Below are positions 1 through 17,408 of a stretch of 64,000 nucleotides of DNA, one piece after another. Every line of letters begins with the position of its first letter. The first letter of the stretch is position 1. This stretch comes from Parabacteroides faecalis (GTDB lineage Bacteria; Bacteroidota; Bacteroidia; Bacteroidales; Tannerellaceae): the NCBI RefSeq assembly GCF_022809355.1, contig NZ_JAKZMM010000023.1, forward strand, positions 1-64,000, given 5' to 3'. The translations under genes and the position numbers were made by a program. The notes beneath the pieces were generated by a model. The model did no database searches. It worked only from the letters and a program-made list of their open reading frames with translations, and was not told the origin of the DNA.

Positions 1-705
1 TTTGCAATGCTTCTCTATCTCACTGACGATTTCCTTCGAGCAGGAACCGCAGTCTGCCCTGAAGCGATTTACACGGATGTTCTGGGATTCCAGAAGAGCG
101 AAGAATCTCTTGTGGGTCTCAGCCTGATAAAAGCGCACATTTGTGTTGCCATCGCTGTTCTCGACATAGACAATCATGTCACCGATGACATATACGCCAG
201 GTCTGTAGCCGAGGAACTTCTTGTATGTCGGTTTTGCATCATACTTCTCTGTTTCAAGGAACTGATGGTCGAAATCAACATCGTAGGTTTCCACCTCATT
301 CAGTTCACCAGTGGAAACCAAGGCTTTTATAAGCAAGGCGTTGAGCTTGTCTGCCGTATTGAAATCATAGGTCTTGCCCTTATCGGAAGTATATGAGATG
401 TTTTCCTGTGTCAGTTCCTTGATGGCTCTGAGGATGGTATCAGAGCTGCATGTGCGCAAGGTCGGATGATACGAGAGATGACGCATCAGATGCGATGTTA
501 CATCCTCCACGCATGAACCGCCACAGAAGTACACGCTCATCAGAGAACGAATAATTTCGCTGTACTGATATCCGATGATACTGCTGCATCTCTGACCAAG
601 TGTCTGGTCGATAATAGGTGAAAGCATGGAGTCAAATTGCTCCATGATTGAAAAAATTCCTCCAAAAGGTGTGAGTTTTTCAGATTTTATTTGTACCTTT
701 GCCAT
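1..705 (-). CDS. IS1380-family transposase, N-terminal part (cut by window edge)
   Basis: A minus-strand frame opens with ATG at 705-703 and stays open for 235 codons to the edge, so the C-terminal part is missing from view. The protein starts MAKVQIKSEKLTPFGG, has RSLMSVYFCGGSCVEDV at about residues 53-69, YDVDFDHQF at 141-149 (likely first catalytic Asp region) and FRADCGSCSKEIV at 215-227 (likely second Asp). This is the pattern I know from Bacteroides IS1380 transposases, DDE enzymes of roughly 430 residues that move the element by cut-and-paste. An overlapping plus-strand frame at 7-396 is its shadow. No frameshift is visible, so the transposase may be functional if the missing part is intact. 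Confidence 0.9.
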   Translation of the reverse strand, partial: MAKVQIKSEKLTPFGGIFSIMEQFDSMLSPIIDQTLGQRCSSIIGYQYSEIIRSLMSVYFCGGSCVEDVTSHLMRHLSYHPTLRTCSSDTILRAIKELTQENISYTSDKGKTYDFNTADKLNALLIKALVSTGELNEVETYDVDFDHQFLETEKYDAKPTYKKFLGYRPGVYVIGDMIVYVENSDGNTNVRFYQAETHKRFFALLESQNIRVNRFRADCGSCSKEIVSEIEKHCK

Positions 706-774
706 GTCATATTAGAGTTTTGCTTGTTTTCTTTTTGCAACACTAAGATAAGTGAAAATTCTGACATGGCAAAA

Positions 775-801
775 TCCTGAGCAACTTTTTGTTGCTCAGG
801 A
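775..801. repeat. perfect 11-bp inverted repeat inside the IS end
   Basis: TCCTGAGCAAC (775-785) and GTTGCTCAGGA (791-801) pair perfectly around a five-base TTTTT loop. It sits between the transposase start and the presumed IS terminus. It may limit read-through from the interrupted host gene into the transposase or act as a transposase recognition hairpin; the sequence alone does not decide. Confidence 0.75.
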
Positions 802-836
802 ACTTATAAATAAAGTTAAATCAAAGTGTTGCGGAA

Positions 837-2165
837 TTAAGGTCCACTATAAACAGAAAGATCATCACCCGGCGCATACCATTTATGATTCGGATCGCCT
901 TCCTTCGGAAATATATGTATCCGCTGGTAATTGAACACCTGATGCAAGATATTGACTTGTTCGTCCAATTTCATTAAATCCTTATCAAAGCGGGTCCGCT
1001 GATTCGGCATCTTTTCATAAGCCTTTTCGATATCTTCCTGAAACTTGTAAGCCCCATCCGTATTAAACACCTGCAAATAGGAACAGGCCTTTTCAGGTAA
1101 ATCAAAATGGGCGGATATCTCTTTATTCGACACACTGATTAATGGAACCCGCATCCACATATCCGGCATCGCCAATAAACTTAGCAGGAACTGGTCGGAA
1201 TTCAATTTACCAAATGTATCTTCCTTATGCAATTTTCTCAAAACTTCCGACGAGAAGGTATTCATCGGAATCATTCGTCCGTTTTCCGACTGTACAGGCA
1301 ATGCGCCAAAAGCTGCCGCATGCTTGGGACTAACCACCAATTGCTGTACAACGGAATTCAAATCCATCGTCTTTTCGTCAGCCTTCATACCAGCTGAAAA
1401 ACTCAACATACCGATCATGATCAGCGTAGAAACACCCACCGAACGCATCTTCTTCAACTGACGGCTTAAATGCATAAAACGGGAATTACGTCCCAAAATA
1501 CAAATGACCAATCCCAAAGCCAGCAGGAAATATCCTGTATAAGTAATGTTCCGGCCGATCACATCCCGGTTGACAGACAAGATCGTCCCATGCTCATCCT
1601 TATCATAAGAAGCCTGGAAGAATCTATATCCTTTAACATCCAGAACATTATTCATAAAAATCAGTTCGCGACGCGTTTCGCCATCTACATGAACCAGTAC
1701 CTCACTCTCGAAAGAAGAAGGACTTGCTGAACCCGGATACCGGGTTAAAGTAAACTTGACCAATTCTACATCAAAAGGCAGTGTATGAAAATAAGTCTTA
1801 TCTCCTGCACGGACGGCAATCTGATTGCTTGACTCGCCTTCACGCAAATGTAACAGTCCTTCTTCGCTGAATACATGCGAGCACATAGCTCCGCCCAAAA
1901 TAACGATGAAAGCCAGGTGTGTCAACAACGCGCCCCATCTCTTCCGGCTTATCAATTGATATTTCCAAGTCATGGCTACGAAATTAACAACCATCAGGAA
2001 TTGCCAGAAAATAAATATCGGGGAATAATACACCCAAACCTTTGCCGTTTCAGTTCCAAGCTGTTTTTCGATAAAAGTCGCAGCGGCCAATCCGCAAGCA
2101 TAAACAATCATCAGCAACAAACAAGTAACCGGAGAAGATAAAAACTTTAGAATATTCGATTTCAT
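837..2165 (-). pseudogene. Cytochrome c assembly protein, ResB/CcsB half of a CcsBA-type gene truncated by IS1380
   Basis: The ResB (CcsB) family works with CcsA in System II cytochrome c maturation, moving haem across the membrane for attachment to CxxCH motifs. The product has TM segments near residues 6-25, 46-65, 79-100 and 206-225, with a His in the third (LLTHLAF), a periplasmic ResB region between TM3 and TM4, another hydrophobic stretch near 243-257, then a soluble linker. It stops after DDLSVYSG with a codon supplied by the IS, before any CcsA WWD domain. In Bacteroidetes the fused protein is normally about twice this length, so I call it broken. MKSNILKF at 2165 is preferred over the upstream ATG at 2192, since TM1 follows directly. 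It is the last visible gene of the cytochrome operon, 183-210 bp after its neighbour. Confidence 0.85.
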
Positions 2166-2192
2166 ATACATCATTAACATAGAACCTGTCAT

Positions 2193-2375: not shown

Positions 2376-5300
2376 TTAATCTTCAATAATTACACGGAAA
2401 CCAACATTGAATATCGGCTGCCAAGGATAGAATGCCTTACGACTATGAGCGGTTGAATACTTCGGACGTTCAACCCAAGAACCACCACGAACAACTTTAT
2501 ATTCGGATGTTTCTTTCGAATTCTCTTTGTAAGGATAAGAAACGTAATCAGAACGAGTCCACTCACCAACATTACCGTGCATGTTATACAAGCCGAATGG
2601 ATTTGCTTCATATTTCTTACCACCTACCTGAATCAGACTACCGTCATTTACGCTTTCTTCTTTCGGCAAGAAAGTATAATACTTATACCAGAAGCTAGTC
2701 TTCGGCATCGGCTGCGGGTCGATACCACTTACAGCCAACAAGTTGGTTGTTTCGTCAGCCATATTCTCCTTCTTTCCGAAATCAGCATTCATATCACCGT
2801 ACCAGAAGTCCTGATCGCTACCAGCACGACAAGCCCATTCCCATTGAGCTTCGGTCGGTAATGTAATATTCAAGCCAGTCTTTTCGCTCAACTGCTTACA
2901 GAATGCCATTGCATCATTATAGCTTACGCGAATTACCGGTTGATCCGGATCATTAGCCACATATCCCGGATAAACGTGGTCTTTCCACTGCTGATCCATA
3001 TGACGGCTGTCATGATCTGGGAAGAATACATTATACTGCTGGTTGGTTACTTCCAATTCACCCATCCAGAATGATTTAGCGATCTTCACTTTTGCAGTAG
3101 GACGAGCATCTGGTTCACCATGATAACTACCCATAACAAACTGACCGGCAGGGATACGAACAAAGGCCATCTTAATACCCGGCGCCAATTCGATTTCCAT
3201 ACGAGTTTGTTTCTCGTCTGCCAACATTTCCTTAATAGCATCGGCATTGAACGGCCAACCTTTAGCCTTCAGTGTCTTTTCCTTTACAGGAGCTTCCTTT
3301 TCAGGCATAACCGGAGTGATCGGGCCTTTAGCCTTCAGATAGGCAGCATAGTCGGCAATTTCCTTTTTCCAATCTACGCCTGAGCCACCGGCATACTTGT
3401 TGTTCAATTCAATACGACGTTCAATCTGGTCAAATCCCTGATAAGGAATAATATTCTTACCAAGCACGTTGGCATTGAAATAACCCTTATCCGGAGCATT
3501 ATAATCAATCCAGTTATACAAAGTTTTCCATTCAGCATCCGTCAGTTTCACATTATGGTGACCTTTCTTCAACAAGCGAACCAATTCACTTGTATTCTGA
3601 TAATATTCGTACGGGAACAATACCAGCATATCACCTTCACCACCCTGACGATGTACATACGGATGTAAGTTCAGATAAGACGGACCATAACCTAACTTAT
3701 CCTTTTCGCCGGCACGCAAGTCGAAGGCCTTACCCTGGCCATTATGGCAAGCGATACAAGCACGATCCAAGATAGGCTGGATTTCCAAATCGAATGTAAA
3801 CGAACGAACACCACCTTCCGGAGCTTTCAGTTTAGCAGCTGCTTTCTGAGAAGCGATCACACGTTTCGGAATAGCGATTTCATTCTGATCCTCATGACAA
3901 CCAACGCAAGAAACGACTTCACCCGGCTGACCAGTCAACCAACTACGCATCCACTGGATAGCGGCACCATCTTTATCAAGAGGCTGGATAGAAATAGGTG
4001 TATTGGCCGGAATCTTAAAGATAACAGAACCATCTTCTTCAACCGGAACTGTACCTAACAGACGTTTAATATCCCAACCACTCTGGATACCATGCCAGTT
4101 ATGGTCAGATTGAGTCTTCACGTATGCATATTCATAAGCATGGATACGAAGTTCCTTCACTGTACCACGCGGAACATTCTTCAAACCTTCACCTGCATAA
4201 ATATCCTGAATGAAGACAGTAGCTTCTTTATCATTCAATTTCACACGGTCCGGGATACTTGGCGGTGTAACAGACTTACGAACTGGAATCGGACTGATGA
4301 AACCTTCACCTTCTGCCTGATATACACAAGTAACGTTATCATAAATATCCACCAGATAAAGTCCCCACAAATCATTAGAAGACAACTTAGCAGATACCAA
4401 GAAATACTTATCGTTCAACGGCATCGGCTTTACAAACTGCGGCCAAACACCATTTACCAATTCATCTTTGATCAACTCCTGAACAGGACGGTTACGATGA
4501 GGTATTTCCTGAGTCATACCGGCTGCTCCTTTACGAGCTTTTGACGGATCAAATAAGATCAAACGACCAGAACGGGCAATACCATGGTGACCTGAGATAA
4601 TACCGACAAATGCAGAAGGATGACCAGGCAATGGCTGAACATCAAATGTACTGTTCGGGAACATAGAACCACTACCGAACAATGCCTTCTGTTCTGTACC
4701 ATCCGGATTCATATGCATCACAATACGAGAATAATAGTGTGTCAAGTCTGTATATTCCCAACGAGTGTACATAACTTTACCGTTAGCCATAATGGTCGGA
4801 TTCCAGTTAGCATCCTGATCGAATGTGATACGACGCATACTCTTATCCTTCGGATTATATAAAACCATATTACCAACTGGGTCATCTCCACTTACACAAG
4901 GCACACCTTGATAACCAATGTTTGAAATACCGATGATTCGTCCATCTGGCAAATAAGTACCATCATAGAATTCCAAATCAGGTTCTTTCATTTCAATCAT
5001 CGGATGATAACCGGTTCCGTCTAATTTGACTTCATGGATATTCCAACGCTTATCCGGCATTGTCTGCGTAAACATTACGCGATCTCCGTCCCAATGAAGT
5101 TTCAAGTCAGCAATAGAAGATGAATGATCCGGTTTATAAACCTGACGCATCTGAACGTCACCACGCAAATTGGTCAATTCAACAATTTCAGAATCGAAAC
5201 CTTCACGACGGGCTGATTCCTGATTACTCCAGTTATTAGCCTGTGTTCCCAAATCCGGAGCCATAGCCTGACGAGCTTTCGCTCCTAATTTGAAACGAGT

Positions 5301-6386
5301 AGCAACAATCTTATCGCCATCAAGCAAGGTATTTCCTAACAAAATAGCACGCTTGTTAGCCAATGCTTTTTTCGCATCAGCCATCACCTGCGCATCTCCT
5401 TTATAAATACCAGAAAAGCCTTTCTTGTTTAATTCAATCAATTCATTAAGCAGAGGTTCATACTTAGCGACATCATAACCTTTCTGTCTCTTCATGTCGG
5501 CAAATGCCAGCTTAACAGCCTCAACATTCAACCATTCCAATTCGTCTTGAAGAGCAGCTACCGCCTGTATCTGTTCCAGCAAAGACAGATATTTATGAAT
5601 CTGAGTATTCACATCCGATTCATTTGCAATCTGCTTAGCGGCTTCTGTAAAGTATGCCTTATCTTTCAAATGAGAAAGAGCTTTCTCAACAGCTTGTTTC
5701 TCTACTGAAGCGTCGGCTGTGATCAACCAAGTATCCAAACCGTCCAATACTGAACCCAACATGGCTATTTCTTTCGGATACTGAGCGTTCAATTCCTCTC
5801 CTACCTTGCTCGGCATAACATTCAACGCCTGGAAAAAAACGCTTCCGCCCTGAGATGTATCATCAATTCCGACTTCTGCTTCAAAACGGACATATTCGCC
5901 ATTCAGAGGATAAACCAATGTTCCATTAGCATGACAGAAAACTCCATGCTTATATTCTTTCCCAGCAATAAAGATTTCGTGATCATATGCATTGGTATTC
6001 ATTTTGGGTTTTGCCCAACCAGCAACACCATATTCATAAGGAATCTGATCCAACCAAACGGCTGTTCCATCAGCTTTGATCAAACGAGCATTTGCCCATA
6101 CAGCCTGATCATAGTCTGTTCCATCAGGACCACCCGCCGTAACCAATACAAGTTTATCTAAGCCTTTCACATCCACAGTAAATGGCTGAGCCTTCTGCTT
6201 ATGCTTCATCCACTGCGAAATAACAGGCATGCCTGCCTTCTTCAGCTTCTCTTGTAATTCGGTTTTTGCCTTAACGGATGCATCTATCCAATTATCAACT
6301 TTCTTTTGCTTCGGGCCAGCCCAAGCCAGTGTAGATGTTGATAAAAGAACAGATACTATTAGTTGATATTTGTTCATGTTATTCAA
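2376..6386 (-). CDS. HzsA-like di-haem beta-propeller protein with NPCBM and SUMF1-type domains
   Basis: A large exported protein (1336 residues, signal peptide ending near AWA, about residue 23). Domains in order: NPCBM-like carbohydrate-binding region (about 65-195), a helical region (205-365), a PD40/six-bladed propeller-like region (about 395-720), a cytochrome part with CVGCH at 827-831 and CIACH at 877-881, and a C-terminal SUMF1/FGE-sulfatase fold from about 1060 (RIPAGQFVMGS, LPTEAQWEWACRAG, MHGNVGEWT, VRGGSW). Propeller followed by two c-haems is the plan of the hydrazine synthase alpha subunit and its non-anammox relatives; that link is by architecture and memory. The Tyr I recall four residues after the first CxxCH His in true HzsA is Asn835 here, so the same chemistry should not be assumed. 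Haem attachment should need the assembly gene downstream, which is broken. The alternative start MNKYQLIV is three codons in. Confidence 0.75.
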   Translation of the reverse strand: MNNMNKYQLIVSVLLSTSTLAWAGPKQKKVDNWIDASVKAKTELQEKLKKAGMPVISQWMKHKQKAQPFTVDVKGLDKLVLVTAGGPDGTDYDQAVWANARLIKADGTAVWLDQIPYEYGVAGWAKPKMNTNAYDHEIFIAGKEYKHGVFCHANGTLVYPLNGEYVRFEAEVGIDDTSQGGSVFFQALNVMPSKVGEELNAQYPKEIAMLGSVLDGLDTWLITADASVEKQAVEKALSHLKDKAYFTEAAKQIANESDVNTQIHKYLSLLEQIQAVAALQDELEWLNVEAVKLAFADMKRQKGYDVAKYEPLLNELIELNKKGFSGIYKGDAQVMADAKKALANKRAILLGNTLLDGDKIVATRFKLGAKARQAMAPDLGTQANNWSNQESARREGFDSEIVELTNLRGDVQMRQVYKPDHSSSIADLKLHWDGDRVMFTQTMPDKRWNIHEVKLDGTGYHPMIEMKEPDLEFYDGTYLPDGRIIGISNIGYQGVPCVSGDDPVGNMVLYNPKDKSMRRITFDQDANWNPTIMANGKVMYTRWEYTDLTHYYSRIVMHMNPDGTEQKALFGSGSMFPNSTFDVQPLPGHPSAFVGIISGHHGIARSGRLILFDPSKARKGAAGMTQEIPHRNRPVQELIKDELVNGVWPQFVKPMPLNDKYFLVSAKLSSNDLWGLYLVDIYDNVTCVYQAEGEGFISPIPVRKSVTPPSIPDRVKLNDKEATVFIQDIYAGEGLKNVPRGTVKELRIHAYEYAYVKTQSDHNWHGIQSGWDIKRLLGTVPVEEDGSVIFKIPANTPISIQPLDKDGAAIQWMRSWLTGQPGEVVSCVGCHEDQNEIAIPKRVIASQKAAAKLKAPEGGVRSFTFDLEIQPILDRACIACHNGQGKAFDLRAGEKDKLGYGPSYLNLHPYVHRQGGEGDMLVLFPYEYYQNTSELVRLLKKGHHNVKLTDAEWKTLYNWIDYNAPDKGYFNANVLGKNIIPYQGFDQIERRIELNNKYAGGSGVDWKKEIADYAAYLKAKGPITPVMPEKEAPVKEKTLKAKGWPFNADAIKEMLADEKQTRMEIELAPGIKMAFVRIPAGQFVMGSYHGEPDARPTAKVKIAKSFWMGELEVTNQQYNVFFPDHDSRHMDQQWKDHVYPGYVANDPDQPVIRVSYNDAMAFCKQLSEKTGLNITLPTEAQWEWACRAGSDQDFWYGDMNADFGKKENMADETTNLLAVSGIDPQPMPKTSFWYKYYTFLPKEESVNDGSLIQVGGKKYEANPFGLYNMHGNVGEWTRSDYVSYPYKENSKETSEYKVVRGGSWVERPKYSTAHSRKAFYPWQPIFNVGFRVIIED

Positions 6387-6428
6387 TTATTCAGGTATGC
6401 AATTAATCTTACTAGAGACTAGCATAGT

Positions 6429-6470
6429 ATTTTGTTCTATACAACCACACCAGGCTGTATAGAACAAAAT
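6429..6470 (-). terminator. intercistronic hairpin, 15-bp perfect stem
   Basis: ATTTTGTTCTATACA (6429-6443) pairs with TGTATAGAACAAAAT (6456-6470) around a 12-base loop. It sits 9 bp after the cupin gene stop and 42 bp before the large haem protein start on the minus strand. There is no strong U-tract after the stem, so it may be an attenuator or an mRNA-end stabiliser within the operon rather than a full terminator. Confidence 0.6.
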
Positions 6471-6479
6471 CAAGAGAGA

Positions 6480-7196
6480 TTATAATGCGGCTTTCGTATT
6501 TGTGAAACGCAAACCATCATTATCATGGTAACAAGCCCATTCATCAACAATAGCACCTTCCGGTCCAGCCATCATGAAATGGAATGTTCCCAATTCTTTC
6601 AGACGCAATACATCACCCACTTTCTGAACAACAAAATTCTTACTCTTAATCGGACCATGAGTAGCAGGAATAGCAGGAGCATTAGGAGTTTCATCTCCAA
6701 CCTCAGAGAAATTATAAACCCAACCTTTTTCTACCATCCATGACTCATGCTTTGCAGGGAATTTTGTTTTAACGTGAGCATGTTCAGGAATCATCTGGCC
6801 TGGCAATAAATAAATGGCATGTGCAAAATAGCCATATTCCGGATCATTAACCCAGAAAATACCACCCATACCAACATTTTCGAAATCACCCAAACCAAAG
6901 TCAGTTACCCACATGTCTTTTGCCATAAGTTCTGTGAAAGGAACTCCATAAAATGCAAACATGTCTTTCATTGCTTCCATAGCAACATCTTGCTGGAATT
7001 TGCCGTCTTTATAGAAATCGGCATTTGTGTACTTCTTAGAATAAGTCATAGCTTTATTATTTTTAATATCAACTTGATTGTTCTCAGTCGTAGCATCTTG
7101 TGTCTTAGATGCGGTGTTTGCTGATTGATTAGAACATGCAACCATAGAAGATAAACCTATAGCTGTCACCATTAATTTAAAATCCATCTTTTTCAT
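6480..7196 (-). CDS. Cupin-fold lipoprotein, D-lyxose isomerase-like
   Basis: A 238-residue protein with a lipoprotein signal (SSMVAC, Cys21), so it should be membrane-anchored in the envelope. After a polar linker (22-50) the body resembles the D-lyxose isomerase cupin family: IPEHAHVKTKFPAKHESW supplies the HxH and Glu that in that family bind a divalent metal, followed by MVEKGWVYNF and a later His in LGTFHFMMAGPEGA. Known D-lyxose isomerases are cytoplasmic sugar ketol-isomerases, so an exported version in a cytochrome operon is odd; it may bind or modify a sugar substrate outside the inner membrane. The gene is 30 bp after the RidA-like gene and should share its transcript. The family is likely; the substrate is unknown. 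Confidence 0.65.
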   Translation of the reverse strand: MKKMDFKLMVTAIGLSSMVACSNQSANTASKTQDATTENNQVDIKNNKAMTYSKKYTNADFYKDGKFQQDVAMEAMKDMFAFYGVPFTELMAKDMWVTDFGLGDFENVGMGGIFWVNDPEYGYFAHAIYLLPGQMIPEHAHVKTKFPAKHESWMVEKGWVYNFSEVGDETPNAPAIPATHGPIKSKNFVVQKVGDVLRLKELGTFHFMMAGPEGAIVDEWACYHDNDGLRFTNTKAAL

Positions 7197-7226
7197 TGTA
7201 CTTATTAATTATTTGTGTTAATAATA

Positions 7227-8321
7227 TCATTTCATTGCTATTCCTTCAATCTCAATCAACAATTCTTCCCGACACACATCCGTACACATATAAGAAATAG
7301 GAATATTCAAATTATAAGCGTCCAAAAGTTGCTTTGCTTCTTCATAGAAAGAACGATCTTTCAAATAAACCCGCAACATCTTTATTTTTGCATCACCTAT
7401 TAATTCTGCAATATTTTCCATTGTAATATGCAGTTGCCGTTCCAAGCCCACGCCTATAAGCGTTTCTTCTCCACGAATAGCAGCCGTACCAGAAATATAA
7501 ATCATATTGTTATTTCCCGAAGTAAGCCGTTTGGCTCTTTCAAACTTCGGAGTAGTCTTTTGCGTACCAGCTTTTTCCAAAACTTTTTCAGAATATGCAT
7601 GGGCTGCTATTTGAAGTTTGTTGTCAATTGGTGTTGCAAAACAATCTTTTTGTTTGAAGACAACAGCATCAACATCAACAACCAAACCTCCTAAATCTGC
7701 TCCGATACCCGTCGCTGCCGGATATCCATTACTCCAGTCTGCTGGTCCGTAAAATTCACTACGGGCATTATTAAACATCTGATAACGCTGGTCTGATCCA
7801 TCGAAATCGGTTATTCTTTCGATATAATTCCACTGTCGTATTATACTATTGACCGGGAAACCTTCCTTGCGCAGCAGTTCACCCAAACATCTGAAAACAC
7901 CAGATGCTTGCTGTCGAATACCAAACATCAAAATATCTTCTTGGAAGCCACCCGCATACAAACATCTCATTTCTTTATTCTCCAAAAGAACATACGGTGT
8001 ACCTTCATAATGACGAAAGACAATAGAATCATCAGCTTCAGGCACATAACTATGTACTTCCATAATCAATGTTGCTCCTAATGGAGGTTGGGCCACATAC
8101 GTCAATGCTGGTTCCATTTGCTGATAACGATGACGGATCTTTTCACGGATCAACAGTCTCCGCTCCAAATATTGAGAATTAGACAAGGGCATTCCAAAAA
8201 ATACCAAACGCAGAACAACTTCGTTTTGAGGAATACAAGCGAGTAGTTCATCAACCGCACTATTAAAATCAGTTTGGCTTGTCTGAAATATATTATAATG
8301 TATCTTTTGACAATAATTCAT
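7227..8321 (-). CDS. RidA/YjgF-superfamily protein with FkbO/Hyg5-like architecture
   Basis: A 364-residue protein without signal peptide or TM segment, so cytoplasmic. The C-terminal part (about 235-364) reads as a RidA/YjgF fold (MIYISGTAAIRGEETLIGVG, ITMENIAELIGDAKI, MLRVYLKD), with an N-terminal domain of similar size. Two tandem RidA-like halves are the layout of chorismatases such as FkbO and Hyg5, which hydrolyse chorismate; simple RidA proteins hydrolyse reactive enamines and imines. YGPADWSNGYPAATGIGA (near residues 190-208) resembles the chorismatase core, but I cannot assign the reaction. It lies only 10 bp after the propeller/di-haem gene, implying one transcript. Confidence 0.6.
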   Translation of the reverse strand: MNYCQKIHYNIFQTSQTDFNSAVDELLACIPQNEVVLRLVFFGMPLSNSQYLERRLLIREKIRHRYQQMEPALTYVAQPPLGATLIMEVHSYVPEADDSIVFRHYEGTPYVLLENKEMRCLYAGGFQEDILMFGIRQQASGVFRCLGELLRKEGFPVNSIIRQWNYIERITDFDGSDQRYQMFNNARSEFYGPADWSNGYPAATGIGADLGGLVVDVDAVVFKQKDCFATPIDNKLQIAAHAYSEKVLEKAGTQKTTPKFERAKRLTSGNNNMIYISGTAAIRGEETLIGVGLERQLHITMENIAELIGDAKIKMLRVYLKDRSFYEEAKQLLDAYNLNIPISYMCTDVCREELLIEIEGIAMK

Positions 8322-8331
8322 AGTCCTAACT

Positions 8332-10107
8332 TTATAATGAATTCACATACTCAGTCAGTTCCTCAATCTCCTTATCAGAAACTTTCTTATCAATACCATG
8401 CTTATAAACACGGAACACATCTTCCATGGTTGCCGCTGCTCCATTAAATAAATAAGGAGCTGTTCGCCAAACTTCACGTAATGTAGGTGTATCCCAACCT
8501 TGTTCAAATTCCACATTCTCTCCTATGATATGATATTTCATATCTGTAAAGTTTGGACCACTATGGCATTCTCCACATTTCAACTTTTCAAATACCTTAC
8601 GGCCAGCTTCAGCCTTCTCACTTAACTTACCATCTACCAAATATGGACTAGGAACAGGTTGTAGAGATTTCAAATATGCATCTACGCAAACTGCCATATC
8701 TTCTTCTGGTTCGTAAAACTGAATATAACGAAAGCCTGCTCGAACAGCAAGTTCTGCACTTTCACGAATACCAGATATCATACATGGTGGTGTTACATGA
8801 CTAAACAAAAGGCTCTTGCAATTCTTCGAATTACCGATACCATCATTCATTAAATCCCAATTCATACCATCTGTTCTTGCATCTCCAGGATGACAACCAT
8901 TACAACTCTGCCAATTCTGGAAGCAATGAGCAGCATCGTTAAAATATCTCTCCCCCTTCTGTTCAACCGTTTCTGTCCGATCCGGATTTAAAGGCACAGA
9001 AGTCAAATCTAAAGATTCCTTGTCTAGCACATTCAGTACGTCTGCGAAATAAGTTGGAATGACAACTTTATTTTCATTTGTGACCATACAACGAGGGCCA
9101 TTGCCTTGTAAAGGAATTCTTGTTCGCAAACCGTATAAGAACGTCAGATCATAGTCCAAACGGGATTTATCAGGATATGCCTCAAATTTTTCACGCATAG
9201 CTTCATGATCAATTACACTGACTTCATGCGTTCCACTATGTGTTATATAAATTTGTTTTTCATCACAAGCAATACTCCAAATACCTGCAGCTCCACGATC
9301 AGGCTCATCTACGATAACAACACCTGCATAACTTAAATTCTCCGCATCAATAATACTAAATGCACTTGTATTCATCCAACCTTGTTGAAGCTGTGAGGTA
9401 GGAACAGTAAAACGACCTAAATTATGAGATACATATACATATTTCCCATCAGGCGTAATACATAAACCTCGCAAAGCATTACTTCCATTTGCCAATTGGA
9501 TATCTTTTACTTTTTCAAAAGTATTTACATCAATCACAGACACACAAGCTGCCACATAATCAAGATCAGCCCGCTGTGCCGGCAAAAAGTTTGTAACAAA
9601 CAAATATTTTCCATCTTTACTGAAAACAGCAGACCGAGGCTCACGCAGTACATTCACTGTACGAACAATCTTTCCACTAGCTAAATCAATTTCTACAACA
9701 TTATTAGAAAACTGATTACATATATAAATATGCTTTCCATCAGGTCCTAATAAAGGATAACAAGCCCCAGAACCAGTAGGAATTATTTTCTCTACTTTTC
9801 CCGTCTCCATTTGCATGATCTGCAAATGACCCATAGTTTCAAAAGTTGTCACATAGGCTTTTCCTTCATGTAACAAAATACCTGTGGGCGTTTCATCGAC
9901 AGGATAAGAATGTAAAAGTTTTTTACCATCAGCTGAAAAAATATCCACACACTTCTTTCCTTTTTCAGCCAGCCACATTTCTCCGTTTTGACTTATATCT
10001 ATCCCTGTTGTAAAAAAAGGTTTCGTGTCAGCTTTAACCCACGAAAAACAACAACAAGCTAAGCCAGTCAATAATAATTTCCCAAATAAACTTTCCAGTA
10101 TCTTCAT
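8332..10107 (-). CDS. YncE-like beta-propeller fused to a MauG/cytochrome c peroxidase-like di-haem domain
   Basis: An exported protein of 591 residues with a hydrophobic signal (LFGKLLLTGLACCCFSW; VKAD could precede cleavage). Residues about 30-375 are a seven-bladed YncE/WD40-type propeller with repeated blades such as SPDGKYVYVSHN-like turns. The rest is a di-haem domain with CNGCH at 402-406 and CGECH at 511-515, and the TPTLREVWRTAPYLFNG stretch typical of MauG and bacterial cytochrome c peroxidases. In hydrazine synthase the beta subunit is such a propeller and the gamma subunit such a di-haem protein; I recall that some anammox lineages fuse them. Here it is co-transcribed with the HzsA-like protein. 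Electron transfer in the periplasm is the safe part of the call. Confidence 0.75.
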   Translation of the reverse strand: MKILESLFGKLLLTGLACCCFSWVKADTKPFFTTGIDISQNGEMWLAEKGKKCVDIFSADGKKLLHSYPVDETPTGILLHEGKAYVTTFETMGHLQIMQMETGKVEKIIPTGSGACYPLLGPDGKHIYICNQFSNNVVEIDLASGKIVRTVNVLREPRSAVFSKDGKYLFVTNFLPAQRADLDYVAACVSVIDVNTFEKVKDIQLANGSNALRGLCITPDGKYVYVSHNLGRFTVPTSQLQQGWMNTSAFSIIDAENLSYAGVVIVDEPDRGAAGIWSIACDEKQIYITHSGTHEVSVIDHEAMREKFEAYPDKSRLDYDLTFLYGLRTRIPLQGNGPRCMVTNENKVVIPTYFADVLNVLDKESLDLTSVPLNPDRTETVEQKGERYFNDAAHCFQNWQSCNGCHPGDARTDGMNWDLMNDGIGNSKNCKSLLFSHVTPPCMISGIRESAELAVRAGFRYIQFYEPEEDMAVCVDAYLKSLQPVPSPYLVDGKLSEKAEAGRKVFEKLKCGECHSGPNFTDMKYHIIGENVEFEQGWDTPTLREVWRTAPYLFNGAAATMEDVFRVYKHGIDKKVSDKEIEELTEYVNSL

Positions 10108-10138
10108 GGTTCGCTATTTTTATGGTAACATACATTTA

Positions 10139-10948
10139 TCAATCTTTCAACATCGGGCTATATCCTAGTTCCGCAGATATTATTTTCGCATACTTTCGGA
10201 TCATCTGAGCAGATTCTTCGACTACTGAATCCGATAATCGATCTTTAGGTCCAGAAATCCAAATAGCCCCACATGGATAACCAGTATAATTTAAAATAAC
10301 TGAGCCGATACATATAACACCACTCATTTCTTCTTCATTATCCAAAGCATATCCATTTTCTCTTACTTTTTCCAGCTCTTTCAAATATGTGTCACGATCC
10401 GTTATCGTATTTGCATTAAAACGCTGGAACTGCATATACGATAAATATCTATCACGAACGGTATTAGGCAAATAAGCCATAATAGCTTTCCCTGGAGCTG
10501 AGCAATGGAGTTCAAAAGGTTTACCCGGAGCTAATACAAAATGAAAAGCATGAAGTCCCTGAGCTTGCTCAATAAAAATACCTTTTTCATTTCCCAAAAC
10601 TCCAAAACAAACAGTTTCTTTTAATATATCACGCAAATCACGTAACTTCGGCAATACGATTTCCAATAAATTATGTTCCTTCAAAGAACAAAACCCCAAT
10701 GTTAATAACTTTCGTGTAATCTGATACCGTTTCGTTTTATCTTCGAAATATAAATATTCCAATCGGACCAACGTATTTAGTATACGATATGCTGTCGTCT
10801 GGGAAATATCCAACGCCTGTTTAATTTCTTGCAAAGTTCGTCCTTCTGAATTATAGGAAAGATATTCTAAAACAGCTATTCCCTTTTCCAAGTTAGGAAC
10901 TTTATAATTCTCATCCGTTTTTTCCACATTTGACATCTGTGTTTCCAT
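10139..10948 (-). CDS. IclR-family transcriptional regulator
   Basis: A 269-residue regulator with an N-terminal winged helix-turn-helix (about 18-80; RTLQEIKQALDISQTTAYRI) and a C-terminal IclR effector domain (about 95-255; CSAPGKAIMAYLP, GYALDNEEEMSGVICIG, GPKDRLS). The family usually senses a small organic acid or aromatic and controls an adjacent catabolic operon. It leads the cytochrome operon on the same strand, with 31 bp before the propeller/di-haem gene, so it probably regulates itself and the whole set. Candidate operators overlap its own promoter. Start METQMSNVEK is placed by the promoter just upstream. Confidence 0.9.
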   Translation of the reverse strand: METQMSNVEKTDENYKVPNLEKGIAVLEYLSYNSEGRTLQEIKQALDISQTTAYRILNTLVRLEYLYFEDKTKRYQITRKLLTLGFCSLKEHNLLEIVLPKLRDLRDILKETVCFGVLGNEKGIFIEQAQGLHAFHFVLAPGKPFELHCSAPGKAIMAYLPNTVRDRYLSYMQFQRFNANTITDRDTYLKELEKVRENGYALDNEEEMSGVICIGSVILNYTGYPCGAIWISGPKDRLSDSVVEESAQMIRKYAKIISAELGYSPMLKD

Positions 10949-11253: not shown

Positions 11254-13146
11254 ATGAGAAAATGGAAAATTGAAGATTCAGCCGAACTGTACAATATTAA
11301 TGGTTGGGGACTGAATTATTTTTCGATTAATGAAAAAGGGCATGTCGCGGTACAACCCAAAGCTGGTGGACCAACTATCGACTTGGAGAATCTAATGGAA
11401 GAATTACAAATTCAAGATGTAGCGGCACCTGTTTTACTCCGTTTCCCGGACATTCTCAATAACCGTATTGAGAAAATATCTAGTTGCTTTGAAAAGGCAG
11501 CAAAAGAATACGGGTTTACGGCCAAAAATTACATCATTTATCCTATTAAGGTAAATCAAATGCGCCCCGTTGTTGAAGAAATTGTCAGCCATGGCAATAA
11601 ATTCAATATCGGACTGGAAGCTGGTTCAAAGCCGGAGTTACATGCCGTTCTGTCTATTGATATTGACAGCGATGCCATGATCATTTGTAATGGTTATAAA
11701 GATGAAAGCTATATAGAATTAGCTTTATTAGCACAAAAGATGGGTAGACAGATCTTCTTAGTCGTTGAAAAAATGATGGAATTGAAGACCATTGCAGCAT
11801 TGGCTAAGCGTATGAATGTAATGCCCAATATTGGTATTCGCATAAAATTAGCTAGTTCAGGTAGTGGAAAATGGGAAGAATCTGGTGGCGATGTTAGTAA
11901 ATTCGGATTAAATTCCAGTGAACTTTTGGAAGCTCTAGAATTATTAGAGCAAAATGGATTGAAAGATTGCTTAAAACTAATCCACTTCCACATAGGAAGT
12001 CAGGTAACTAATATCCGAAGAATTAAAACAGCTCTTCGGGAAGCTACCCAATTTTATGTACAATTAAAGCAACTAGGTTTCAATATCCAATTTGTAGATA
12101 TAGGCGGAGGATTAGGCGTTGATTACGATGGTACTCGTTCAGCCTTAAGCGGGAACAGTATGAATTACTCTATTCAAGAATATGTTAATGATGCAGTTTC
12201 TGCCTTAGCCGATGTATGTAAAAAATTCGGATTGGAACAACCTAATATCATTACTGAATCCGGACGTTCACTAACAGCTCATCATTCGGTTTTAATCATC
12301 GAGGCTTTAGCTAGTACAAGTTTACCTGCTTGCGATGAAAATGAAGAATTACAGCCAGATGCACATGAATTAGTTCGTGAACTCTATAACTTATGGGACA
12401 CATTAAACCAACCCCGCTTGATTGAAACTTGGCACGACACACTTCAGTGTAGAGAAGAAGCTCTTGAATTATTTAATTTGGGATTAATTGATCTGAAAAC
12501 TCGTGCGCACGTGGAACGATTATTCTGGTCTATCGCTCGTGATGTTTTTGAAATGGCAGAAAGCGTTAAACATGCTCCAGACGAATTGAAGAAAATATCA
12601 AAATTATTACCAGATAAATATTTCTGTAACTTTTCTTTGTTCCAGTCTTTGCCTGATTCGTGGGCTATTGATCAGATTTTCCCGGTCATGCCTATCAGCA
12701 GGTTAGAAGAACAGCCAACCAAGTCCGCCACATTACAAGACATAACTTGCGACTCAGATGGTAAGATTGATAATTTTATTTCTACACGAAATTTCTCTTA
12801 TCATTTGCCAGTTCATAAGTTAAGAGATGGCGAACACTATTATTTAGGAGTATTCTTGGTGGGAGCTTATCAGGAAATTCTAGGAGATTTACATAATCTT
12901 TTCGGAGATACCAATGCGGTACACATCAAAGTAAAAGGAGATAAATATGTCATAGACCGCGTCATTGAAGGAGAGACCGTCGCTGATGTTTTAGAATATG
13001 TACAATTCAACCCGAAACGGATGGCGCGAGCCATTGAAGTTTGGGTCGCATCTTCTGTAAAAAAAGGAACAATTTCTGCAGAAGAAGGTCGTGAATTCTT
13101 ATCCAACTATCGTTCCGGTCTATATGGATATACTTATTTAGAATAA
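11254..13146 (+). CDS. speA: Biosynthetic arginine decarboxylase
   Basis: A PLP enzyme that turns arginine into agmatine, the first step of the agmatine route to putrescine and spermidine. The 630-residue length matches the SpeA family. PLP lysine lies in YPIKVNQ (Lys99); the alanine-racemase-like barrel continues through LIHFHIGSQ and VDIGGGLGVDYDG, and the C-terminal sheet domain carries SLFQSLPDSWAIDQIFPVMP and the active-site CDSDGKID motif. No signal peptide, so cytoplasmic. The gene stands alone, divergent from the IclR operon, and ends at a strong terminator. The downstream steps (agmatine to putrescine) are not in the window. Confidence 0.95.
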   Translation: MRKWKIEDSAELYNINGWGLNYFSINEKGHVAVQPKAGGPTIDLENLMEELQIQDVAAPVLLRFPDILNNRIEKISSCFEKAAKEYGFTAKNYIIYPIKVNQMRPVVEEIVSHGNKFNIGLEAGSKPELHAVLSIDIDSDAMIICNGYKDESYIELALLAQKMGRQIFLVVEKMMELKTIAALAKRMNVMPNIGIRIKLASSGSGKWEESGGDVSKFGLNSSELLEALELLEQNGLKDCLKLIHFHIGSQVTNIRRIKTALREATQFYVQLKQLGFNIQFVDIGGGLGVDYDGTRSALSGNSMNYSIQEYVNDAVSALADVCKKFGLEQPNIITESGRSLTAHHSVLIIEALASTSLPACDENEELQPDAHELVRELYNLWDTLNQPRLIETWHDTLQCREEALELFNLGLIDLKTRAHVERLFWSIARDVFEMAESVKHAPDELKKISKLLPDKYFCNFSLFQSLPDSWAIDQIFPVMPISRLEEQPTKSATLQDITCDSDGKIDNFISTRNFSYHLPVHKLRDGEHYYLGVFLVGAYQEILGDLHNLFGDTNAVHIKVKGDKYVIDRVIEGETVADVLEYVQFNPKRMARAIEVWVASSVKKGTISAEEGREFLSNYRSGLYGYTYLE

Positions 13147-13170
13147 TTTTCCTTACGTGCAATATATATA

Positions 13171-13197
13171 AAAGCCCTTTTGATAAGGGCTTTTTTT
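13171..13197 (+). terminator. Rho-independent terminator after speA
   Basis: AAAGCCCTT (13171-13179) and AAGGGCTTT (13185-13193) form a 9-bp stem with a five-base loop, followed by a run of T to 13197. It lies 24 bp after the speA stop. Confidence 0.9.
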
Positions 13198-13199
13198 CT

Positions 13200-13248
13200 T
13201 TTCAGCGGACTCTTTTTCTGTTTCAGTCTCATGATACGCCGTTTCAGT
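13200..13248 (+). promoter_or_regulatory. three TTTCAG direct repeats at exact 21-bp spacing, candidate LytTR-regulator sites
   Basis: TTTCAG begins at 13200, 13221 and 13242. The last two copies extend to GTTTCAGT. The last copy ends 33 bp before the -7 box at 13282, a normal activator position. LytTR-domain regulators usually bind two short direct repeats about two helical turns apart, and one is encoded at the end of this efflux locus (20016-20792). Binding is an inference. Confidence 0.5.
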
Positions 13249-13281
13249 AACGATAGACTGGTAAGACCACTTCCTCTACAT

Positions 13282-13289
13282 TACTTTTG
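13282..13289 (+). promoter_or_regulatory. -7 promoter box of the efflux operon
   Basis: TACTTTTG matches TAnnTTTG. Transcription should begin about 7-10 bp later, which rules out the upstream ATG at 13287 and fixes translation at 13317. No clear -33 TTTG is present, as expected for an activator-dependent promoter. Confidence 0.65.
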
Positions 13290-13316
13290 CTTCTCGATAA
13301 ATCAATTCATAGACAA

Positions 13317-14351
13317 ATGAAGAAGCAAATCATGTATGTTTTATTATTGGGATGGCTCACTGCTTGCAGTAAGCCTAAGGATCAACAAACAGAGGAATTT
13401 ATGGCAATTAAAGCCAGTCAAGTAGTTACCGAACAGATTTCCTCCGAACGTTGTTATTCATTCATATCTCAACCTTATAAGGAAGCTGTTCTTTCGTTCC
13501 GTGTAGGTGGTATTGTTGATGAATTCAATGTACAGTCGGGACAATTCTTCAAACAAGGAAGTAGAATTGCATCTATAGATGAACGAGATTTCATCATTCA
13601 AAAAGATCATGCACAAGCATTATACGAACAGGCAACATCGGAATACAATCGTGTAAAGATATTATATACCCAAAATAACATCTCCGGAAGCACTTATGAA
13701 AAAGCAAAAGCTGATTATCAAATTACAAAGGCTAATTTGGAAACAGCGACAAATCAATGGAAAGATACCCAGCTAACGGCACCTTTCGATGGCTATGTAC
13801 AGCAAGTATATATTGAAAAGTATCAGGATGTACGTCCATCACAAGCAATCGTTTCATTGATGGATTTATCGAAGATTAAAGTCGAAGTTTATATTCCGGA
13901 AGAGATAGCGGTACAACTTCGAACGAAAAAGGATTTACCCATACAAATTACTTTTGATGGCTTACCTGGAGAAATATTCACACCTACAGAAATCTTTGTT
14001 TCACAAAATATCACAACAAACAATATCTCATTTCTGCTAACAGCTATTATCATGAATCCCGGAAACCGCCTTTTCGGCGGAATGTCCGGAACAGTTTCTC
14101 TGTCTCTTGGGAAAGAGGCAGAGAAACACTCTACTTTTGTTCCTCAGTCGGCTGTATACCATCGAAAAGAAATTGGATCTTTTGTTTGGGTTGTTTCTCC
14201 TGACCAACGCGTACAACAACGTTGGGTAAAGACTGGTATGCTAAAAGAGAACCATTTGATAGAGATTAAAGAAGGTATTAATCCCAATGAAAAGGTAGCA
14301 GTAACAGGTTTATCCTTTTTATCGGACGAGCAACAGGTAACAATCTTATAA
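13317..14351 (+). CDS. RND efflux periplasmic adaptor (membrane fusion lipoprotein)
   Basis: The adaptor links the inner-membrane RND pump to a TolC-type channel. Starting at MKKQIMYVLL the product is 344 residues with a lipobox ending LTAC (Cys17). It shows the usual order: N-terminal barrel-sandwich half (SFRVGGIVDEFNVQSGQFFKQG, near 60-85), alpha-hairpin (about 95-145), second lipoyl half (APFDGYVQQVYIEKYQDV), then beta-barrel and membrane-proximal domains. It is the first gene of the locus and is followed 12 bp later by the pump. An in-frame ATG ten codons upstream overlaps the promoter and is rejected. Substrate is not evident. Confidence 0.9.
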   Translation: MKKQIMYVLLLGWLTACSKPKDQQTEEFMAIKASQVVTEQISSERCYSFISQPYKEAVLSFRVGGIVDEFNVQSGQFFKQGSRIASIDERDFIIQKDHAQALYEQATSEYNRVKILYTQNNISGSTYEKAKADYQITKANLETATNQWKDTQLTAPFDGYVQQVYIEKYQDVRPSQAIVSLMDLSKIKVEVYIPEEIAVQLRTKKDLPIQITFDGLPGEIFTPTEIFVSQNITTNNISFLLTAIIMNPGNRLFGGMSGTVSLSLGKEAEKHSTFVPQSAVYHRKEIGSFVWVVSPDQRVQQRWVKTGMLKENHLIEIKEGINPNEKVAVTGLSFLSDEQQVTIL

Positions 14352-14363
14352 TCTGGCAGACAT

Positions 14364-17300: not shown

Positions 17301-17408
17301 ATGGCAGCCACCATCGTCTTCGGATTGAGCTTCGCCACGCTTCTGACCCTCTTCGTCACCCCAGCTTTGTATGCTATTTTTTACCGGGTGAAGAAAATTG
17401 AGATGTAA
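14364..17408 (+). CDS. RND (AcrB/HAE-type) efflux pump, inner-membrane subunit
   Basis: A proton-driven exporter of 1014 residues with the RND layout: TM1 near residues 10-32, a large periplasmic loop, a block of TM helices near 335-545, a second loop and the final TM block (about 850-1010). The proton-relay motif in TM4 reads GMLVDNAIVV with Asp403 and Asn404; the second position is Asp in AcrB, but Asn is common in this subgroup. Base composition shifts within the gene: 38% G+C in 14461-14520 against 55% in 17041-17100 by direct count. It lies between adaptor and TolC genes and probably exports hydrophobic toxic compounds. Confidence 0.92.
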   Translation: MILKIARFFLQNRAFSWFLLVLILGGGLFSYVKMGKLEDAPFTIKQAVVLTSYPGASPEEVREQVTDVLEESIQSLGELYYLKSDNRAGLSKITVYVKKEIRADAMQQLWDKLRRKVNDVQNKLPIGAGPSIVNDDFGDVLGVFYGLSSESHSYRDLEDQAQQIKKEILKVKDVAKVELSGIQNRTIEVNVDPTLLTQRGVSVAAIAQAFEKQNKIVDAGAIETEESRLRVDATGSFTSLEEIENLTVVSHHGDYFRLGEIAKITESYVHPARSFMFVDQRPTIGIAISTVADGNVVNMAAGVKQRMDELQKEMPTGFSLTTIYDQGHESAVANEGFVMNLIISVLTVIAVLLFFIGFKNGILIGSGLIFSIFGTLIYMMANGIALQRMSLAAIIIAMGMLVDNAIVVYDLALINMQRGMRKRVAILRAVSSTALPLLAATLIAVLTFMPVYLSPHITGELLSSLFIVIAVSLLLSWILAISQNVFFIQEFVRRPRPDELSGELYQGKIYDGFRRLLAFTVQKKYTVVVAMIGLLLLSAWGFRFIPNVFMPQLNKQYFTIDLRLPEGVRIEETEQKMTEIAHFLQQHEDVVHVSSFIGQTPPRFYLANSSYGPQPNYAQCLVEAKDPEKARALQIGLQEKLATMFPGIFIKVNRFELNSIPEALIEARFCGEDPAVLDSLTQRAIEIMRKNPKVLYARNEWSNMAMKVRAEYDPYKAGRLNIGKADMMQAVKAIQDGVAVGVYREENKQVPVLLCSERPQEMNVEQLGDLPIWNGMNTAPLAQVSGPISLDWEYPLVRTYDRKLSMAAQCDVKPGYTMKEAYDEVREEIEQIHLPKGYSFFWDSQIKDQKEAMEALTKYFPLAILLLAMILIALFRNFKQPVIIFLILPLSLIGVVFGLLVSGFDFGFFCMAGWLGLLGMIIKNVIVLLDEMNTQRKNGVDAYQAIIESTVSRVRPVLMAAITTILGMIPLLFDVVFGGMAATIVFGLSFATLLTLFVTPALYAIFYRVKKIEM

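Follow-up and report, generated by a model that had tools for sequence, protein, structure and literature searches.

A hydrazine synthase-like pair of predicted c-haem proteins in Parabacteroides faecalis belongs to a recurring Bacteroidales operon whose gene setting points to carbohydrate catabolism

What use would a gut Bacteroidales make of relatives of hydrazine synthase (HZS), the defining enzyme of anammox, whose origin is debated? The question is raised by a stretch of 64,000 nucleotides of Parabacteroides faecalis (assembly GCF_022809355.1, contig NZ_JAKZMM010000023.1, positions 1 to 64,000), hereafter the window, which corresponds to contig C23 of a 4.3-Mb genome and encodes an HZS alpha-like protein and a fused beta-gamma-like protein in one operon (handles in C, G and L denote contigs, genomes and loci). 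As judged from their sequences, the two proteins are relatives of the HZS family that lie outside the curated HZS groups, and their gene setting points to carbohydrate catabolism. Residue counts refer to alignments of 44 alpha proteins (the window's and those of 43 of 76 listed loci) and 49 beta-gamma proteins (the window's and those of 48 of 55 listed loci). The pair comprises the following features:

2376..6386, minus strand: HZS alpha-like protein (PF18582 1.1e-38, PF03781 5.3e-43, PF08305 3.8e-26)
3891..4166, minus strand: HZS_alpha middle domain (PF18582, 3.5e-39 in the genome search)
3894..3908, minus strand: first CxxCH of alpha, C827-H831, then EDQN (C827, C830, H831 in 44/44)
3744..3758, minus strand: second CxxCH of alpha, C877-H881 (C877, C880, H881 in 44/44)
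8332..10107, minus strand: beta-gamma-like protein of 591 residues, a propeller plus a MauG/CCP-like di-haem domain (NF052342 3.8e-27)
8890..8904, minus strand: first CxxCH of beta-gamma, C402-H406 (C402, C405, H406 in 49/49)
8563..8577, minus strand: second CxxCH of beta-gamma, C511-H515 (C511, C514, H515 in 49/49)

An earlier sequence-only reading had recognized in this pair the alpha and fused beta-gamma plan of HZS with two haem motifs in each protein, and sequence models, fold (for alpha and beta) and co-occurrence now agree on that plan. Alpha comprises an NPCBM domain (a putative carbohydrate-binding module), a propeller, the HZS_alpha domain PF18582 and both CxxCH motifs, and ends in an FGE-sulfatase domain; its conserved start is residue M4 (ATG at ~6377) of the open reading frame (ORF). 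PF18582 matches with 132 bits (cut-off 26.6), and the NCBIfam HZS alpha model at 40 bits, under its cut-off of 800. With a profile of 32 proteins from four length classes, the best match in the PDB was the HZS alpha chain 5c2v_A (8.7e-24 summed, top single piece 5.9e-7); the window alpha as a single sequence reached 5c2v_A at just 0.019, ranked after FGE-type proteins. Moreover, a structural model of residues 340-1062 (mean pLDDT 82) found 5c2v_A as its top PDB fold match (Z 30.4, 553 aligned residues, rmsd 3.2), covering the propeller, middle and haem domains, followed by TolB (Z 24.6, 280 residues, model residues 1-366). The window alpha shares 88% identity with the proteins of both Parabacteroides sp. 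An277 and an uncultured Parabacteroides. Its FGE-like domain has no cysteines downstream of the GGS motif, where we take the catalytic cysteine pair of FGE to be positioned, and in one locus (L098) the alpha gene adjoins a sulfatase-like gene, as judged by eye. The strand, the FGE-sulfatase domain and the isomerase-like gene at 6480-7196 are additions to the earlier reading.

For beta-gamma, NCBIfam ranked the HZS beta-gamma fusion model NF052342 first (95 bits, cut-off 1250), then HZS beta (2.5e-18) and HZS gamma (5.8e-18), all far under their cut-offs. A profile of 23 sequences matched 5c2v_B at 1.4e-31 and 5c2v_C at 6.7e-25, behind the YVTN propeller 1l0q (2.3e-46), and HZS gamma was the sole di-haem protein among its five PDB matches at 1e-10. 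Matches to the MbnH and MauG models fell below cut-off, and so did CCP_MauG for the window protein (17.4 against 25.6 bits), while the relative in L055 passes at 32.5. The structural model (mean pLDDT 77.8) has 5c2v_B as its top PDB fold match (Z 40.4, 329 aligned, rmsd 2.9), the next being 1l0q (Z 33.6). Its di-haem half is of low confidence, and fold searches with this model matched no gamma-type di-haem protein; since that half is poorly modelled, the missing match is not evidence against gamma homology, and for the same reason the gamma assignment rests on sequence. Altogether, both profile and structural searches lead to HZS subunits, HZS alpha and beta being the best PDB fold matches, PF18582 lying above cut-off and NF052342 ranking best for beta-gamma, though below its own.

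The two genes also co-occur elsewhere. Among 123 genomes of the window's family, both were found in 59, alpha only in 5, beta-gamma only in 3 and neither in 56, that is, an HZS_alpha match in 64 genomes and a beta-gamma match at E 1e-20 in 62. This survey comprised 124 alpha rows and 75 beta-gamma rows, four beta-gamma fragments (one in G053, three in G122) being omitted as parts of a gene already counted. A same-strand alpha lies within 8 kb of 62 of the 75 beta-gamma matches, the other 13, near a contig end or not, being without one; conversely, 63 of the 124 alphas have a nearby beta-gamma, about half of the alpha genes thus lacking a partner. An even sample of the phylum (345 genomes, window genome included) gave an HZS_alpha match in 15, 12 of them above cut-off, so the alpha gene is concentrated in some families. 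Scanning a named genome collection returned at least 583 stretches with at least 559 confirmed relatives; the best 80 loci are mostly from Parabacteroides, Bacteroides and other Bacteroidales, and also include Carboxylicivirga and one metagenome-assembled genome labelled Verrucomicrobiales.

Do these relatives retain the residues of hydrazine chemistry? At the position of Tyr591, the haem-ligating residue of HZS alpha as numbered by Hagglund et al. 2025 (PMC12758564, cited throughout from parts of its text), the window alpha has Asn (residue 835, four past the His of the first motif), as the sequence-only reading had noted. Of the 44 alphas, 42 have Asn here, one has Ser and one, from Carboxylicivirga (L130), has Tyr; the other 43 contain no Tyr within 15 residues after the first motif. 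Numbering by offset from the motif, the position of gamma-His144 is Ile in 49/49 beta-gammas and that of gamma-Cys165 falls in an alignment gap. The position of alpha-His772, which in HZS is the distal ligand of haem alphaII, is by offset residue 944, His in 22/44, with an invariant His943 one residue earlier. Cys497 is invariant in 44/44 alphas and in 32/32 across the four length classes; we considered it as the zinc ligand alpha-Cys303 and rejected it, since the Cys303 position falls by offset around residue 575, a place that lacks a Cys. On these alignments, key residues of hydrazine chemistry (Tyr591, gamma-His144 and gamma-Cys165) are absent from the window proteins, and the earlier caution that such chemistry is not implied is supported.

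What, then, surrounds the pair? Every gene of the operon in the window is on the minus strand, in the order IclR, beta-gamma, chorismatase-like, cupin lipoprotein, alpha and ccsBA; besides the pair, the features are:

10139..10948, minus strand: IclR-family regulator, operon gene 1 (PF01614 5.6e-38, PF09339 1.8e-10)
7227..8321, minus strand: FkbO/Hyg5-type chorismatase-like protein with a RidA-like domain, 364 residues, accessory (TIGR04444 3.3e-27)
6480..7196, minus strand: lipoprotein-like cupin of D-lyxose/D-mannose isomerase type, 238 residues (profile against 7nzo 4.6e-12)
837..2192, minus strand: ResB half of ccsBA, its frame stopping early at the insertion element (PF05140 1.8e-22)
1..850, minus strand: end of an insertion element with a transposase-like fragment at 1-705, outside the operon's function (inverted-repeat-like ends, flanking GTGG)

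The regulator and the haem-assembly gene had both been predicted in the sequence-only reading, and their Pfam matches bear this out; the IclR protein also matches the BhcR model (3.2e-49, 168 bits), under its cut-off of 350. The end of contig C23 falls within the insertion element that sits in ccsBA. A search with the DhaK of a relative located the remainder of the operon at the end of contig C26, beyond the element, with the second half of ccsBA followed by genes for a VOC-like protein, DhaK, DhaL, LsrF and a small propeller, which completes the order IclR, beta-gamma, chorismatase-like, cupin lipoprotein, alpha, ccsBA, VOC-like, DhaK, DhaL, LsrF and small propeller. The element has inverted-repeat-like ends with GTGG on either side and related pieces on C44 and C72; its transposase, which we take to be IS1380-like, gave no match in a Pfam search with the fragment. 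The one PF01578 match in this genome is the second half of this ccsBA. As the sole ccsBA found is thus interrupted, c-type cytochromes, the haem pair included, may be unmatured in this strain unless the split ccsBA works in two pieces; the break limits functional statements for this strain and leaves its relatives unaffected. Beyond the operon, on the opposite strand (11254-17408), lie an arginine decarboxylase gene and an RND efflux pair, the latter recognized by eye.

The same set recurs widely. Neighbours were counted in those 44 of the best 80 loci that extend more than 9 kb on either side of alpha (full-flank loci; L121 is without a called alpha), and since the ORF caller favours longer antisense frames in places, the counts are lower bounds. 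Beta-gamma was labelled in 40, the cupin isomerase in 35, ccsBA in 28, DhaK, LsrF, the chorismatase and IclR in 27 each, and the VOC-like protein, DhaL and the small propeller in 25 each. All 27 LsrF loci have beta-gamma, and the four full-flank loci without beta-gamma have SusC; DhaK-type and LsrF genes were each labelled in 27 of the 40 with beta-gamma. Records under six genus names (Parabacteroides, Bacteroides, Massilibacteroides, Petrimonas, Rikenella and Carboxylicivirga) share the arrangement, which argues that it is not due to chance. Parabacteroides loci share one recurring order; some loci, among them that of Bacteroides cellulosilyticus, have DhaK, DhaL and LsrF ahead of alpha. A like set is found in plasmid records of P. 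distasonis (L145, NZ_OY725748.1) and Aureibacter tunicatorum (L146, NZ_AP025309.1), the latter showing neither ccsBA nor IclR in the part examined; plasmid members without annotation were matched purely by order and size, the listed names being 'YncE family', 'c-type cytochrome' and 'SUMF1/EgtB/PvdO family'. Some Parabacteroides loci continue downstream into genes for a transporter and a GH130-type protein. Operon copies with genes in several frames or with stops (L039/L120, L102 and G119:C18) suggest decay in some lineages.

Among the partner genes, the LsrF profile scores 427 bits to Escherichia coli LsrF against 138 to MJ0400, and the copy in L033 reaches 470 bits for an NCBIfam cut-off of 297 (the window genome's own copy is that on C26). 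LsrF is rare, with 3 of 395 genomes matching at E 1e-40 in an even class sample, all three in the window's family. DhaK matches Dak1 and DhaL matches Dak2 above Pfam and below NCBIfam cut-offs. The label 'VOC-like' of the 104-residue protein comes from its residue pattern alone; it had no NCBIfam or Pfam match, and a PDB search returned one chance-like row (E 0.0066). In E. coli, LsrF transfers the acetyl of a phosphorylated C5 compound to coenzyme A (CoA) and releases dihydroxyacetone phosphate (PMC8016206, in part of its text). The operon resembles the E. coli Lsr system for autoinducer-2 (AI-2; LsrK, LsrG, LsrF) in its LsrF thiolase, adjoining kinase and small possible isomerase, but differs in having DhaK and DhaL for LsrK, the VOC-like protein for LsrG and a haem complex in the row; no Lsr transporter was found among the operon genes scanned. 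In two alphaproteobacterial plasmid records, LsrF is accompanied by an FGGY kinase, by a GlpD-like protein and by either an aldolase or an aldolase/short-chain dehydrogenase protein, which fits the idea of an oxidoreductase feeding LsrF.

A sugar substrate is further suggested by the cupin, whose profile matches the D-lyxose/D-mannose isomerases 7nzo (4.6e-12) and 2y0o (4.4e-8) and whose C21, closing a hydrophobic N-terminus, and H139, H141, E151 and H206 are invariant in 14/14 sequences. The relation to these isomerases thus includes the invariant HxH, E and H; unlike them, the window cupin has a lipoprotein-like N-terminus, and it is therefore probably located outside the cytoplasm.

Some of the other alphas, grouped into classes purely by length and domains, adjoin other sugar genes. 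Neighbour labels were inspected in 42 of 60 labelled loci, the rest being copies of the window operon type. With an alpha of ~850 residues, genes for an FGGY kinase, a zinc alcohol dehydrogenase, DeoC, alpha, beta-gamma and a small propeller stand in a row in six loci (L055, L059, L171, L172, L173, with alpha in three frames, and L174, with FGGY in two). Small membrane proteins begin this row in L055, L059 and L171-L174, and the FGGY protein of L055 is above the xylulokinase cut-off. The row was not seen in L178 (a 7-kb contig) or around the pairs of L061, L062, L175-L177, L187 and L188, most of which are on short contigs. With an alpha of ~790 residues, FGGY and DeoC lie near alpha in L184 and in L023 of this very genome (one gene between); L023, L182, L183 and L186 have an IclR gene, and L048, L049, L052 and L185 are without FGGY, DeoC or IclR. 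Hence, in three classes, though not universally, alpha is accompanied by a kinase together with either a thiolase or an aldolase. The L023 paralogue (on C47) is also accompanied by GH2-like (by eye), iron alcohol dehydrogenase, SusC and SusD genes, and a further alpha paralogue of this genome (L024, on C31) adjoins a small propeller gene.

The sequence-only reading had left a nitrogen or a sugar redox reaction as possibilities; we favour sugar, and nitrogen less, because the operon extends into the VOC-like protein, DhaK, DhaL and LsrF and because some paralogues adjoin kinase and DeoC genes. We propose a model, to which we give somewhat less than an even chance, in which an HZS-like periplasmic c-haem complex converts a small sugar whose product is cleaved via DhaKL and LsrF. 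Alpha and beta-gamma would form this complex in the periplasm, where the cupin isomerase, outside the cytoplasm, would produce a ketose; the haem complex would then take two electrons from the ketose, or rearrange it, to yield a dicarbonyl. The chemistry and direction of this step, the small-sugar substrate and the electron acceptor are what we infer. A transporter would import the dicarbonyl, DhaKL would phosphorylate its dihydroxyacetone-like end, the VOC-like protein might isomerise the phosphorylated compound, and LsrF with CoA would cleave the product to acetyl-CoA (or a similar acyl-CoA) and dihydroxyacetone phosphate, the DhaKL and LsrF steps being based on the named families. By the chemistry that we suggest, the LsrF precursor could derive from an oxidised 5-deoxy-ketopentose or from a dehydrated pentulose. 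IclR would sense the compound, ccsBA would attach the haems, and in some operons the chorismatase-like enzyme would provide a chorismate-derived aromatic.

Several observations weigh against this model. Of the 40 full-flank loci that have beta-gamma, 13 show no labelled LsrF; two of these (L107 and L110) look like cases of a label lost to ORF calling. Of the operon set, L070, L071 and L089 have just IclR, beta-gamma, cupin and alpha, and L144 just beta-gamma and alpha. An SSS symporter was labelled in just 5 of the 44 full-flank loci, and DeoC in just 8 of the 38 loci whose alphas belong to other classes. On a Lacticaseibacillus plasmid, LsrF belongs to an ordinary AI-2 set (LsrK, ABC transporter), so that LsrF alone cannot name the substrate. 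The sugar pathway does not account for the chorismatase-like gene. PF01578 occurs in 117 of the 123 family genomes, operon present or not, which is why ccsBA was rejected as an operon-specific marker, and the insertion element splits the gene in this strain. As said, confidence is low for the di-haem half of the beta-gamma model. No electron acceptor was identified, NrfA being the one candidate searched for in the genome, with no match; moreover, c-haem enzymes of an anaerobe may serve reduction rather than oxidation.

The missing acceptor would suit a redox-neutral reaction, in which the complex would dehydrate or deoxygenate an ordinary ketose via a reduction-oxidation haem pair, giving either a deoxy-dicarbonyl or a deoxy sugar, and LsrF and DeoC would act downstream as aldolases of deoxy compounds; we regard this as unlikely. 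Some members of three alpha classes do have LsrF or DeoC before or after alpha, both enzymes give a two-carbon unit (acetyl or acetaldehyde), and HZS itself couples two haem sites. Nevertheless, we know of no haem enzyme that carries out redox-neutral ketose deoxygenation, and the low DeoC count in the other classes speaks against this account too, as do the nine alphas of ~1,090-1,155 residues, whose loci have a SusC label in six cases and an aldolase label in none.

The possible bias of anaerobes toward reduction leads to a periplasmic reductase, for which a sugar-derived or external compound would be the terminal electron acceptor of anaerobic respiration. The c-type cytochromes of gut anaerobes are mostly reductases, and HZS gamma is thought to reduce nitric oxide. 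This reading is rather unlikely, as the kinase, thiolase and isomerase genes fit carbon use, and the operon genes scanned held no above-cut-off match to a membrane quinol-oxidising cytochrome.

The beta-gamma protein might instead be a di-haem enzyme of CCP or MauG/MbnH type, its target being peroxide or a side chain, to be oxidised, in alpha or the small propeller, as the sub-cut-off MbnH and MauG matches and the CCP_MauG match of L055 would allow. We consider this quite improbable: the HZS models took the first ranks in NCBIfam, HZS gamma was the one di-haem protein in the profile matches, and peroxide defence would leave the isomerase, DhaKL and LsrF unaccounted for. True synthesis of hydrazine or another N-N bond, in spite of the subunit plan, the overall fold and the single Tyr of Carboxylicivirga, is highly improbable given Asn or Ser at the Tyr591 position in 43/44 alphas, the Ile and the gap at the two gamma positions, and the negative NrfA search, no search having been made for other nitrogen-cycle genes.

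The accessory gene between beta-gamma and the cupin had been read as a member of the RidA superfamily; the RidA-like domain stands, and the protein is more exactly an FkbO/Hyg5 chorismatase-like one. A plain RidA protein was rejected, the chorismatase model scoring far higher (TIGR04444, 95.6 bits, under its cut-off of 325). Its profile matches Hyg5 (5ag3) at 1.3e-35 and FkbO (4bps) at 9.3e-29, aligning from residue ~153 onward. C350, aligned with the Hyg5 Cys that distinguishes Hyg5 from FkbO in the alignment, is invariant in 20/20, and presumably that Cys has a role in 3-hydroxybenzoate formation. Unlike these enzymes, the window protein is under the family cut-off, has Glu where the GHE motif of Hyg5 has its His, and leaves its first ~150 residues unaligned. 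Hyg5-type enzymes produce 3-hydroxybenzoate, according to the part of PMC7170507 drawn on here. In two loci, the only ones tested, a gene resembling 3-deoxy-D-arabino-heptulosonate 7-phosphate synthase lies near the operon (L116:14093-14851 in B. cellulosilyticus and L097:20289-21035 in an uncultured Phocaeicola, both below model cut-offs), which fits a demand for chorismate.

Compared with the HZS of Kuenenia stuttgartiensis (5c2v, 5c2w), the window pair shares the alpha propeller, middle domain and two c-haem motifs, the beta propeller and, by profile, the gamma di-haem domain, and has beta-gamma upstream of alpha, as in the anammox order given in PMC12758564. It differs in lacking equivalents of Tyr591, gamma-His144 and gamma-Cys165, in the extra NPCBM and FGE domains of alpha, in the genes between beta-gamma and alpha, and in its sugar-catabolic neighbours. 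Hagglund et al. described paired HZS-like alpha and fused beta-gamma proteins outside anammox in clades I-IV; in the parts cited, these likewise have adjoining genes, and clades I-III have lost Tyr591, its position being aligned with a two-residue gap. Their named homologues come from Planctomycetota, Desulfobacterota and a few others, and clades I-III differ from the window in having alpha upstream and FG-GAP or ABC-transporter neighbours; clade I has no alpha-His772, whereas the set aligned here has its invariant His within one residue. Bacteroidota do appear in the published beta-gamma tree, and the 300-1,000 GTDB and >600 Foldseek matches reported for alpha may include Bacteroidales proteins. 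The abstract, sections 7-8 and early Discussion of PMC12758564 make no mention of DhaK, LsrF, isomerase or sugar genes, and a literature search of titles and abstract openings, with few subscription journals and no bioRxiv, found no account of the Bacteroidales operon. Thus, paired homologues outside anammox are already known; the counts for gut Bacteroidales, the complete operon and its interpretation as carbohydrate catabolism are new.

Our study bears on where HZS came from. PMC12758564, in the parts cited, mentions the hypothesis that HZS was born de novo, and favours an origin in haem-binding periplasmic proteins that already existed. As a speculation that we hold to be unlikely, HZS could have arisen from periplasmic sugar-converting haem complexes still common in Bacteroidota, in which two haem sites would perform a coupled reduction and oxidation of a single ketose, a redox-neutral deoxygenation, ahead of an LsrF/DeoC-type cleavage; if so, there would be a new pentose-type sugar route to acetyl-CoA (or acetaldehyde) and triose phosphate. 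The operon hints at a role of the HZS family outside anammox, and since its conserved neighbours suggest a class of substrate, the ancestral function could be tested in gut species that can be cultured. If our carbohydrate reading is true, LsrF, familiar from AI-2 breakdown, would serve a wider pathway, and many gut Bacteroidales would apply c-haem chemistry to sugar breakdown.

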